DNA of 64,000 bases from Embleya scabrispora. GTDB lineage: Bacteria; Actinomycetota; Actinomycetes; Streptomycetales; Streptomycetaceae. Below the pieces are notes generated by a model. That model searched no databases, was not told the origin of the DNA, and saw only the letters and a program-made list of their open reading frames with translations. Shown here in pieces: positions 53,298 through 57,637 of the stretch. The translations under genes and the position numbers were made by a program. Each line of letters starts with the position of its first letter. Positions within the stretch are counted from its first letter, which is position 1. Location of the stretch: the NCBI RefSeq assembly GCF_002024165.1, contig NZ_MWQN01000001.1, positions 1,054,001 to 1,118,000 of the forward strand. The letters run 5' to 3'.

Positions 53298-53330
53298 GTT
53301 GACCCTGACGCGGGGTCAACGTCCCAGCAT
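53298..53330 (+). promoter_or_regulatory. MerR-type promoter with perfect 8-bp inverted repeat
   Basis: GTTGACCC-N7-GGGTCAAC (53298-53320) lies between a -35 (TTGACC, 53299-53304) and a -10 (CAGCAT, 53325-53330). The spacing is about 20 bp, longer than the 17 bp of normal promoters and typical of MerR-activated ones. The predicted start site coincides with the ATG of the following gene. Confidence 0.68.
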
Positions 53331-53337
53331 GGCTCGC

Positions 53338-54939
53338 ATGACTGAGAAAACCGATCACTTCACGGTCCACCACGACGGCGTCACGATCCCGGTGTCTCGC
53401 GGCGGCCGGGGACGGCTACTGGTCCTGTGCCCCGGGCTCCTGACGACACAGGCCGATCTGCGCGAGTTGACCGAGCTGCTGCGGCGCGACCACGATGTGG
53501 TGACCTTCGACTTCAGGGGCCATGGGCTCTCCTCGGCCGCCGAACGGTACTCCTTCGAGGCGTTCCTCGGCGATCTCGTCGCCGTGATGGCGGAGCTTGT
53601 GCGCCTCGGCATGTCCTCGGCGCCCGTGCTCGTGGGCCACTCGCTGGGCGCGGACCTGATCGTGCACTACGCCGCCGAGTATCCCGGCGCCGCCGCCGAA
53701 CTCGTTCTGATCGACGGGGCGAACCCGGTGCCCGATCCGTTCATCGGCGAGGCCGATCTGCCGGAGTTCCGCGCAATGGCGGAGGATCTGCGGCACGAGG
53801 CCGAGCGGGCCGAGGGCACACCACGTCAGGTACTGCTCACCGCACAGGACATCCTCGACCTGAATCTCGAGGTGGATGTGGTGCGGTCCGCAATCCTGGA
53901 CCGCTATCGGAAGATCGACCGTCCGATCAGCATGATCATGTCGACCCGGATGGCCGGTGACAGCGGCGAAGGGCGTGCGCCGTGGCGCAATCGGAACTGG
54001 CGTGCCGGCATCGAGCGGCTGGTCCGCGAGCGGCCGCACGTCTCCACGTCCTGGCTCGACGCCGGTCACGGGCTGGTCGTCACCCACGCCCCGGACATCG
54101 CCCGGATCATCCGGAGTACCCAAGGCCCCGCGGGCCAGGCGACTTCGGAAGTCCACGAGACTGATCCGATGTTGACCATCGGCGAGTTGGCGTCGTACGC
54201 CGGGGTGACGGTGCGCGCGGTGCGGCACTATCACGCCAAGGGGCTGCTGCCGGAGCCGGAGCGGGATCACTCCGGCTATCGGAGATACGGCGCCGGCGCC
54301 GTGATCGAGCTGATCAGGATTCGCACCCTCGCCGCGGCCGGAGTCCCACTGGCGCGCGTGCGGGAGCTGCTGGAGGCCGACGAGGAGGAGTTCGCCGCGG
54401 CGGTCGAAGACATCGACAAGCGGCTGCGGGCGGAGATCCGGGAGCGGCAGCGGCACCGCGAGCGGATCGCCCGCCTCGCCGCCGGCGACAACCTGGCGCT
54501 GCCTCCGGAGGTGGTCGCGTTTCTCGACCACCTCCGGAAGCTTGGGGTCGACGCGCGAATCGTCCAGGTCGAGCGCGACGGCTGGATCCCGCTGGCCGCG
54601 CACTCACCCGAGCGGGTCCCGCAGTGGGTGGCACGCAAGCGGGAGCAGATCGCCGATCCACGGCTCATCGACTTCCATCTCACCCTGGGTCGGGCTTTCG
54701 ACGAGGCCGACGACGTACGGCTGGTCGAGCTTGCCGACAAACTGGCCGACTACCTCACGCAGACGGCCGACGAGCAGGGTGAGGACTACGTCGACGATGT
54801 CGATATCGAGCCACCGTTCGCCAAGCTGATGGACACACTGGCGTTCGACAGCACGCCGCCGGCCCGTCGCCTGATCGAGCTGCTGAGGCAGCGAGGCTGG
54901 ACCGGCTGGACCAAGCTCGAACGAACAGTGGGTAGATGA
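53338..54939 (+). CDS. Alpha/beta hydrolase - MerR regulator fusion
   Basis: 533 residues from ATG 53338 (ATG 53329 also possible but overlaps the -10). Residues about 5-265 are an alpha/beta hydrolase: FDFRGHGLSS, nucleophile elbow VGHSLGA with Ser102, and base His244 in LDAGHGLVV. Residues 278-345 are a MerR DNA-binding domain (MLTIGELASYAGVTVRAVRHYHAKGLLPEPERD...YRRYGAGAVIELIRI). A coiled linker and a helical C-terminal domain of about 150 residues follow. There is no stop or separate strong ribosome-binding site at residue 278. The MerR-type promoter upstream implies autoregulation, and the hydrolase fold may be the ligand sensor. Confidence 0.85.
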   Translation: MTEKTDHFTVHHDGVTIPVSRGGRGRLLVLCPGLLTTQADLRELTELLRRDHDVVTFDFRGHGLSSAAERYSFEAFLGDLVAVMAELVRLGMSSAPVLVGHSLGADLIVHYAAEYPGAAAELVLIDGANPVPDPFIGEADLPEFRAMAEDLRHEAERAEGTPRQVLLTAQDILDLNLEVDVVRSAILDRYRKIDRPISMIMSTRMAGDSGEGRAPWRNRNWRAGIERLVRERPHVSTSWLDAGHGLVVTHAPDIARIIRSTQGPAGQATSEVHETDPMLTIGELASYAGVTVRAVRHYHAKGLLPEPERDHSGYRRYGAGAVIELIRIRTLAAAGVPLARVRELLEADEEEFAAAVEDIDKRLRAEIRERQRHRERIARLAAGDNLALPPEVVAFLDHLRKLGVDARIVQVERDGWIPLAAHSPERVPQWVARKREQIADPRLIDFHLTLGRAFDEADDVRLVELADKLADYLTQTADEQGEDYVDDVDIEPPFAKLMDTLAFDSTPPARRLIELLRQRGWTGWTKLERTVGR

Positions 54940-55750: not shown

Positions 55751-56188
55751 TCAGACCAGGTGCTCGATCGTGACGTCGTTCCAATGCCGTGCGAGGTACT
55801 CCGCGACCAGTCGACGGTGGCAGTGGTGCGCCGTTTCCTCACTGCAGAGCAGCACCGCGTTGTCGAGCGCTTCCCGCGGGACGACGTCCTCGATCCGGCG
55901 AACCTTCATCAATCCGAGGAAACGTTCTTCGTAGGCCGCCCAGCCGACACCCTGTTTCTTGTAGGCGTCGAGCATCTCCTGGGTCGGCGCCAACTCGGTA
56001 CGATGGCTGTAGTGCGCACCGCAGAGCGCGCTCAGGAAGTACCTCAGATCGTCACGCTTGGCGAAACCCGACAGCTGCGAGACGTTGTTGAGTCGAACGT
56101 CGACGAGAGCCGTCACGCCGGCTCCCTGCAAAAGTCCGAAGAACTTCTCGGCGGACTTCTTCGTGAACCCGATCGTGTAGAGCTTCAT
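55751..56188 (-). CDS. DUF488 family protein (second copy)
   Basis: 145 residues, starting inside the stop of the first DUF488 gene (ATGA). LYTIGFTKKSAEKFFGLLQGAGVTALVDVR is the characteristic N-terminal half. VLLCSEETAHHCHRRLVAEYL carries the conserved Cys-x-x-Glu and Cys-His-Arg set. The fold looks like a small nucleotide or nucleic-acid enzyme but no activity is known to me. Sequence divergence from the first copy argues for two different functions, or a heterodimer, rather than recent duplication. Confidence 0.88.
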   Translation of the reverse strand: MKLYTIGFTKKSAEKFFGLLQGAGVTALVDVRLNNVSQLSGFAKRDDLRYFLSALCGAHYSHRTELAPTQEMLDAYKKQGVGWAAYEERFLGLMKVRRIEDVVPREALDNAVLLCSEETAHHCHRRLVAEYLARHWNDVTIEHLV

Positions 56189-56775
56189 CGATCCTCGCTG
56201 ACATATGCGATCCGTCGCTCCTGACGCTCGAGAGCCTCCTGGAGGCGCATGGCCGAGGTCCGGAAGAGATCTTCCCGGTCCAGTCCGAATTTGGCCATCA
56301 GGCGCCGCATCGCCGCCTCATGGTCCTCGATATGCCCGTCACCGTGGATGTGTTCGACGGCGATCCCGTGCTCGTCGAGGACTCGCGCGACGAGCACACA
56401 ACGATGACAGTCGAGCGGCTCCTGTTCCGCGCACATGACGGCGATTCGCTCGCTCTGCGAACCCTTCCGCAGACGTTCGACGCCGGTGACGAAATCCGGG
56501 GTCCGGGCCAGCAGGTCATACCGTACCCGTCCATCGACATAGCAGGTGAGGTCTTGGGTGCGTGCACCCAGTTCTTTTCCCAGGAAGACGTACTTGATAT
56601 CGCTGTCGCGCAGGCTGCGCTCGATGGCGTAGCGGTTGAACCGGGGCGTGAATCGGCTGACCGGCACCGACCGCACATCGGCGACTGCCGTGACTCCATG
56701 CTTTTGCAGCAGGCTCAGAAAACCTGAGATGCTGTGTGTGGAGTGGCCGACAGTGAATAGTTTACTGGCTGTCAC
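56185..56775 (-). CDS. DUF488 family protein (first copy)
   Basis: 196 residues: LFTVGHSTHSISGFLSLLQKHGVTAVADVRSVPVSRFTPRFN, YVFLGKELGAR, and VMCAEQEPLDCHRCVLVARVL, giving all DUF488 landmarks, plus a charged 45-residue C-terminal helix absent from the second copy. The 10-bp gap from the upstream OB-like gene and ATGA overlap with the next gene show a tight operon. Base composition is clearly less GC-rich than the surrounding genes. Confidence 0.9.
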   Translation of the reverse strand: MTASKLFTVGHSTHSISGFLSLLQKHGVTAVADVRSVPVSRFTPRFNRYAIERSLRDSDIKYVFLGKELGARTQDLTCYVDGRVRYDLLARTPDFVTGVERLRKGSQSERIAVMCAEQEPLDCHRCVLVARVLDEHGIAVEHIHGDGHIEDHEAAMRRLMAKFGLDREDLFRTSAMRLQEALERQERRIAYVSEDR

Positions 56776-56785
56776 AGCTTGCCGC

Positions 56786-57475
56786 CTACACTTGGATCCG
56801 CGCTCGTTCGATGATGGCTGCCACTAGTTTGTAGGCATGACCTTCGAATGGTTCTCCGAGACTTATCGTGAGGAAGGATTCGCCCAATTCGTGAGTGCCT
56901 TCCGATCGAATCAGATATTCCTGCTCATACGTGGGATCGGTCACTCGTAATATATACGCGTGCCCGGCGTGGGAGAAGCAGGCGCTCAGGGCCTTGCTCG
57001 GATCTCCGAACCTCGCTCTGGGAGTGTTCACTCGTAACGTCAGGTCCGTGACGCGTATCAGCTTGAGCGAGTCCCGCAGAGCAACCGTCTTTTCGGTCGG
57101 GACGCAATCATTGGCGCCGTGGAAGGTACGGGATCCGTTGATCCACAACGTGTCGGGGCGCTGCTCGAGCGTCAGCAGTTCACTCCACCCGATCCGGCCG
57201 GTCCTTCGCCAACGACAGTCGGGGTCGAGGAGCCAGTTCTCGGTCTGGAACCGGTACGGCTGAGGCCGAAGCAGCGACACCGCGACGACATCGAGGACAT
57301 TCGGCTCAGTGCCGTCTCGGTACCGTCGTTCGCGCTCGGAGACCTCGCGTTTCGGGCGGTCGCCGACCGGGCGTATCCACTCCCCCGAGCCGTCGTCGAC
57401 GATGCCCGCCACGCACCGGGCCGAATGCTTGCGGGAATTCGCCAAACATACGAGCGTCTTGTTCGTACGTTCCAC
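56786..57475 (-). CDS. Unknown protein, possibly dual-OB type, in a DUF488 operon
   Basis: 229 residues from GTG 57475 (GGGGGAC upstream). It starts VERTNKTLVCLANSRKHSARCVAGI and is then beta-rich: GEWIRPVGDRPKREVSERER, VLDVVAVSLLRPQPYRFQTENWLL, HAGHAYILRVTDPTYEQEYLI, LGEPFEGHAYKLVAAII. The repeated strand pattern and association with DUF488 recall proteins I have seen described as dual OB-fold, suggesting nucleic-acid or nucleotide binding; this family call is tentative. Codon use is AT-richer than neighbours, including CGTAATATATACGC on the plus strand near 56950, suggesting transfer. Confidence 0.6.
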   Translation of the reverse strand: MERTNKTLVCLANSRKHSARCVAGIVDDGSGEWIRPVGDRPKREVSERERRYRDGTEPNVLDVVAVSLLRPQPYRFQTENWLLDPDCRWRRTGRIGWSELLTLEQRPDTLWINGSRTFHGANDCVPTEKTVALRDSLKLIRVTDLTLRVNTPRARFGDPSKALSACFSHAGHAYILRVTDPTYEQEYLIRSEGTHELGESFLTISLGEPFEGHAYKLVAAIIERARIQV

Positions 57476-57637
57476 GTTCGTCCCCCGATCCGAACGGATT
57501 GTCGGTCGTGCGGATCGTCTCGAAGCCCACGACGGAAGCACAACCCTCGCCCGTTTTTCGAGCAGGCACGAACTCGGCGCACCGTAGGTGCACTTCGCGC
57601 GCACCGCCCACGATCAGGGCTGTCGAACGGTCCGGGG

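Follow-up and report, generated by a model that had tools for sequence, protein, structure and literature searches.

An alpha/beta-hydrolase and a MerR regulator merged into one reading frame in Embleya scabrispora, probably from an autoregulated operon with a predicted leaderless start

The gene described here is best read as an autoregulated enzyme–regulator operon whose two genes, for an alpha/beta-hydrolase and a MerR-type regulator, have been merged into one frame in a single genome, a reading to which we assign a probability of roughly 0.78. It lies in a 64,000-nucleotide stretch of the Embleya scabrispora genome (10.96 Mb, 8 contigs), referred to here as the window, flanked by a divergently oriented lon gene and a gene with a RibD_C domain. 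As a kind of system it is ordinary, with two uncommon features: a predicted leaderless start that stays pinned to the operator across exchanged payloads, and the merger seen here. The architecture, its conservation, the split relatives, the pinned start codon and the remnants of an exporter can all be read from the sequences compared. Neither the operon, nor the payload swap, nor such a fusion is described in the titles and abstract openings listed from the open-licence literature searched.

The frame is free of stops from 53329 to 54939 and encodes 536 amino acids from its first ATG, or 533 from the second, at 53338. Pfam matches over the cut-off are Abhydrolase_1 (residues 30–148), Abhydrolase_6 (31–256), MerR (283–320) and MerR_1 (283–350), with residues counted from 53329; Ser102, Asp126 and His244 are counted from 53338. 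A preliminary description had proposed a single open frame encoding an alpha/beta-hydrolase and then a MerR domain with a helical C-terminus. This is confirmed for the frame from ATG 53338 to the stop at 54939, and the residue numbers of that description match the second ATG, the start favoured by comparison. The features are as follows.

53298–53320, forward strand: operator, a perfect GTTGACCC-N7-GGGTCAAC dyad centred on 53309, 5 bp past the −35 box (exact palindrome; operator in 88 of 95 loci)
53299–53304, forward strand: −35 element TTGACC, within the left dyad arm (sequence and comparison)
53306–53318, forward strand: second, overlapping dyad TGAC-N5-GTCA centred on 53312, 8 bp past the end of the −35 box (symmetry scan)
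53325–53330, forward strand: −10 element CAGCAT after a 20-bp spacer (CAGCAT in 62 of 85 loci)
53338–53340, forward strand: start codon at the predicted, leaderless transcript start (38 or 39 nt from TTGACC in relatives)
53338–54147, forward strand: alpha/beta-hydrolase module (Pfam, alignment and model)
53641–53643, forward strand: Ser102 (alignment)
53713–53715, forward strand: Asp126 (alignment)
54067–54069, forward strand: His244 (alignment)
54148–54168, forward strand: seven-residue linker EVHETDP, in place of a stop codon and intergenic spacer (comparison; low model confidence)
54169–54936, forward strand: MerR regulator module, a separate gene in 92 other loci (Pfam, comparison and model)
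about 54175–54378, forward strand: MerR helix–turn–helix (HTH) (Pfam and model)
about 54481–54936, forward strand: MerR helical C-terminal domain (model)
54937–54939, forward strand: stop codon of the fused frame (open reading frame listing)

Elsewhere in the window, two adjoining DUF488 genes on the reverse strand (55751–56188 and 56185–56775) overlap by a few bases and form an apparent tandem beside a dual-OB-domain gene (56786–57604).

The perfect dyad upstream of the gene and the MerR-type promoter with a spacer of about 20 bp had also been proposed in the preliminary description, and both stand: the palindrome is exact, it overlaps the −35 box, and the spacer measures 20 bp. CAGCAT agrees only at A2 and T6 with TAnnnT, given in the excerpted text of PMC8079986 as the −10 consensus of S. 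lividans, in which 17% of transcripts are leaderless and the mean distance from −10 to start is 6.3 nt. Here 7 nt separate the end of CAGCAT from ATG 53338, which begins 8 nt after its last base. The palindrome is the sole exact copy in the genome, and the 21-bp operator core has no further match there at up to three mismatches. A shuffle test of this pattern alone is weak, with 0.40 matches expected at up to three mismatches and at least one match in 35 of 100 shuffles, which is compatible with a dyad and overlong spacer arising by chance at an ordinary promoter. Such an origin is nevertheless very improbable, given that the operator recurs in 88 of 95 loci, at a fixed spacing and before two unrelated kinds of gene. 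It is this conservation across distinct loci, rather than a shuffle test of one pattern, that supports the predicted operator.

These 95 distinct loci comprise the window, 65 loci and 34 longer stretches from further genomes, less five duplicates; L159 (genome G031, of the same genus as the window) is a duplicate of L063, recorded as Streptomyces sp. SID3343. The operator was located by score in 82 of the loci, and in six exporter loci (L165, L170, L171, L173, L175 and L176) that fell under the score cut-off it was located from the start codon, so that these six are not independent evidence for spacing. The seven loci in which no operator was found include L019 and L063, where the contig starts too close, and L045, which is masked before the gene. 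Setting aside L078, which has an operator and no payload to test, and L021 and L178, which have no start codon at 38 or 39 nt, leaves 85 testable loci. In 83 of these (77 of 79 without the six located from the start) a start codon lies in frame 38 or 39 nt downstream of the first T in TTGACC; in L026 and L041 it is out of frame with the hydrolase. The earlier placement of the predicted transcript start on the ATG itself is thereby made much firmer.

The alternative start at ATG 53329, which overlaps CAGCAT, was considered and rejected: of the 83 loci in which the pinned start works, 28 (23 of the 77) either have no upstream ATG or have it in the wrong frame, and in the other 55 both starts would do. 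ATG 53329 is thus probably not the true start. Because A53338 is the A of the start codon, the mRNA would be leaderless, a prediction that fits both the geometry and its conservation. For mycobacteria, the abstract of PMC4633059 states that a 5′-terminal ATG or GTG is both necessary and sufficient.

The position of the dyad bears on how the regulator might act. Canonical MerR sites have their centre 7–8 bp past the −35 element, which corresponds to offset 14 here (PMC5045206, in excerpt, which also gives spacers of 19–20 bp for MerR promoters); the main centre in the hydrolase clade, at offset 11, is closer to the −35 box. At offset 11 the symmetry reaches 7.05 of 9 pairs in the 61 hydrolase loci and 7.07 in the 15 near exporter loci, compared with 4.90 and 4.27 at offset 14, which makes it the stronger centre in both groups. 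In six distant loci (five exporter, one unassigned) the order is reversed, with 7.67 at offset 14 and 6.33 at offset 11. As the canonical centre is stronger only in these six, simple repression by MerR at the hydrolase-clade dyad is possible. Autoregulation by MerR is likely on this comparative evidence, and we infer that it would proceed by activation through distortion of the DNA.

Comparison with relatives bears on the nature of the fusion. Removing L077 and L078, which carry neither payload, leaves 93 loci, 63 with a hydrolase (window included) and 30 with an exporter; L083 (G010), which is split, and weaker MerR relatives lacking longer flanks are left out of this number. Payload and MerR are split in 92 of the 93, the payload frame stopping before or just inside the MerR gene, and the window alone is fused. 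At the place of the window's Met278 the codon is ATG in 81 loci, GTG in 11 and ACG in one, and GGAG or AGGA occurs within 20 nt before the MerR start in 49 of 63 hydrolase loci and 28 of 30 exporter loci. The preliminary description had read the gene as a one-protein enzyme-sensor, a reading that is not supported as a family trait: the homologues are split, with a separate MerR start at residue 278, and the two-domain order occurs within one gene in this single locus. Since the hydrolase is elsewhere a separate gene beside a MerR with its own start, it is better regarded as the regulated payload, and its assignment as the ligand domain of MerR is rejected.

No second full-length, stop-free match was among the matches listed in searches of 200, 391, 394, 4 and 396 genomes (overlapping draws; E-value cut-offs 1e-30, 1e-60, 1e-60, 1e-15 and 1e-90, respectively), and the two other full-length matches listed (G314 and G762) each contain one internal stop. 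Among four genomes of the same genus, the hydrolase–MerR form is found only in that of the window; G031 has the exporter form, and the remaining two have only weak MerR matches (best E-values 9.5e-18 and 1.8e-17).

At the junction, the window hydrolase reaches GQATS, where close relatives, with this or a similar ending, stop, and then continues through EVHETDP into the MerR methionine. Residues 266–277 fall under a pLDDT of 50 in the model, and the linker should form a flexible or disordered tether. Junctions in the family vary widely. In several relatives the payload stop reaches 7 or 17 nt into the MerR gene, in most overlapping cases the overlap is at most 17 nt, and in other loci the stop lies tens of bases before MerR; L030, in which the hydrolase end is out of frame, and L045, which has a masked run, distort this distance and were set aside. 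With natural wobble this large, an occasional in-frame fusion is to be expected, and by comparison with these relatives the fusion appears to be a loss, in one genome, of the stop between enzyme and regulator. In L063 and L159, of the same genus, the stop of the ABC permease has shifted to overlap the MerR start, another drifting junction. In L023 and L074 the hydrolase is in two frames and the MerR start is intact, through payload decay or sequence error.

One could ask whether the genome really has two genes, the fusion being due to an indel introduced into the spacer during sequencing or assembly. The window spacer aligned to its nearest relatives shows small gaps at the stop codon, and one small indel could suffice. 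However, the nearby hrpA-like and lon frames are full length, and no internal stop was found in the 150 scored of 364 ABC_tran candidates in the same genome, a sample biased to intact ones. The ribosome-binding site differs as well, beyond the reach of one indel at the stop, although weak sites exist in split loci too. On balance we consider an artefact unlikely, and the fused hydrolase–MerR protein may well be made in this genome.

Whether the regulator is also made alone from Met278, by internal initiation, with the fused protein as a side product, is a related question. The ATG and part of its conserved context are kept (GAGACTGATCCGATG), and junctions elsewhere in the family vary freely. 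Yet the commonest form in relatives, GGAG, is CGAG here (54156–54159), and loss of the hydrolase stop leaves no terminating ribosome to re-initiate at MerR. We regard internal initiation as a real possibility, albeit one well short of even odds. The same weak site has a bearing on a third alternative, in which the fusion is a functional and selected one-protein enzyme-regulator whose hydrolase consumes the inducer on the operator-bound protein. The continuous frame and the intact Ser102, His244 and MerR HTH are in keeping with it, and the ribosome-binding site before Met278, at −3.3 (median −7.3), ranks only 83 of 93, as would be the case once separate initiation had ceased to matter. This leans slightly towards a real fusion, but ten unfused loci have still weaker sites and one has an equal site, and a single fused locus among 93 offers no evidence of selection; selection for the fused form is therefore rather doubtful. 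The preferred reading is still that of a two-gene operon merged here by loss of a stop.

That the operator–MerR pair can serve other payloads is apparent from the 30 exporter loci, in which an ABC-2 exporter precedes the same MerR. A permease match is present in all 30 and an ATPase match in 28, the exceptions being L045, which is masked there, and L177; the one pair checked against Pfam, in L039, consists of ABC_tran and ABC2_membrane. An operator was located in 26 of these loci, and 25 of the 26 have the pinned start. Operator, pinned start and 3′ MerR are therefore shared with the hydrolase loci, and the payload is an ATPase and a permease instead.

The hydrolase loci bear traces of this exporter. 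Among 24 long hydrolase leaders (over 30 nt), 11 contain a remnant of the ATPase N-terminus that beat all 300 shuffles, and six more beat all but 1–4 of 300; the other seven (L016, L040, L041, L060, L070, L182 and L184) have little or no ATPase similarity. In-frame remnants of the ABC ATPase start lie between operator and hydrolase at, for example, L025:3836-3916, L031:3896-3958 and L038:3866-3946, and they may be translated, extending the hydrolase at its N-terminus. At the other end, position −15, where the permease stops, is occupied by TAG in 10 of the 63 hydrolase loci, compared with 19 of the 30 exporter loci.

When the MerR tree (92 rows) is rooted at its midpoint, exporter-type rows are the most distant, and nine payload changes are needed, at least two of them forced by well-supported branches; the tree is poorly resolved and midpoint-rooted, so the number and direction of swaps are uncertain. 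In a tree of 60 hydrolase rows, the 11 leaders with a remnant are spread over more than one group, with eight changes, at least three of them forced. Such scatter is as expected for an old, eroding remnant, although repeated capture would give the same pattern. The exporter genes seem to have been replaced by the hydrolase, with the first ATPase codons retained; the exporter would then have come first, a direction that we infer from the same comparisons, and the operator–MerR pair looks older than the hydrolase payload. In L048 a hydrolase–MerR pair lies on a contig labelled as an unlocalized plasmid, which hints at horizontal movement.

The hydrolase module has the alpha/beta-hydrolase fold with a nucleophile elbow and a conserved histidine (model pLDDT 90.4, pTM 0.89). 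It is complete, as first described with Ser102 and His244, and both of these, together with Asp126, are invariant in 32 aligned hydrolases; the module is presumed to be an active enzyme. A fold search gave only broad hydrolase matches, at about 15–22% identity among the best 50 of 1905. The two halves were modelled separately, because a joint alignment of hydrolases and MerR proteins to the fused protein misplaced the hydrolases, and the structure models cover each half alone.

The regulator half belongs to the MerR winged-HTH family by Pfam (PF00376, 55.1 bits against a cut-off of 28.2; PF13411, 50.6 against 21.6), and its promoter, with a 20-bp spacer and a dyad operator in 88 of the 95 loci, has the overlong 19–20-bp arrangement of that family. 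Beyond residue 350, no family in Pfam scores above its cut-off. The model (pLDDT 85.4, pTM 0.53) places further helices after a long coiled-coil-type helix, and the solved structures among the matches align only to the HTH and this helix, 35 profile matches ending at or before position 104. Among the best 50 of 163 fold matches to the model, alignments likewise extend over at most 133 columns, and no relative of the C-terminal domain is present. On the model, then, MerR has a helical C-terminal domain of its own.

Together, these observations suggest how the system might operate. MerR most likely binds at the dyad, across the −35 box and the overlong 20-bp spacer, and would keep the promoter off or poised. 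Binding of a small molecule by the helical C-terminal domain would reshape the DNA and allow RNA polymerase to start at A53338; the hydrolase would then remove or change the inducer, shutting the system off. DNA binding, ligand sensing and feedback are all presumed parts of this scheme. In relatives, MerR would be translated from a separate start codon close to where the hydrolase ends. In the window, where that stop is lost, the ribosome would read through the linker and yield mainly the hydrolase–MerR fusion. In distant relatives the operator and MerR flank an ABC-2 exporter, whose place the hydrolase appears to have taken.

A broader idea, which we hold only tentatively and think unlikely in its full form, is that the leaderless MerR promoter acts as a plug-in slot: operator, pinned start and 3′ MerR stay constant, the payload is exchanged and coding scars are left at both ends, and here enzyme and sensor have merged into a feedback protein which, sitting on its own promoter, may break down the inducer to which it responds.

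These results have several implications. First, the tempting reading of the hydrolase as the MerR sensor is corrected and replaced by a testable one, in which one operator–regulator pair governs either a pump or an enzyme. Second, the remnants would record payload exchange. Third, the loci make a clear comparative case, from sequence alone, for an operator-fixed leaderless start. Finally, should one inducer act on both the pump and the hydrolase loci, either branch could be used to find the ligand of MerR.

Several known systems resemble parts of this one. The hydrolase shares its fold and superfamily Ser/His positions with solved relatives taken by profile at E-values up to 1e-12, namely the putative aryl esterase 4x00 and three Alp1U entries (6kxh, 6kxr and 7clz), at E-values of only 3e-13 to 8e-13. 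The best solved profile relative of the MerR half is TipAL (2vz4, E-value 4.9e-14), which, like BmrR, Mta and BrlR, has the N-terminal winged helix and long dimerisation helix in common with it. Regulators of this multidrug-type MerR family act at promoters with overlong spacers. The present system differs from these four in its helical C-terminal domain, which reached no Pfam cut-off, and in its payload: the regulator presumably shares its transcript with a hydrolase or an ABC-2 exporter. CvkR, as presented in the excerpted text of PMC9938897, is a MerR-type repressor that is likewise tied to leaderless mRNAs, and its motif lies mainly within the 21-nt spacer of one target promoter. It differs in being a small regulator of a CRISPR-associated transposon in cyanobacteria, with another motif and with no enzyme domain in that account.
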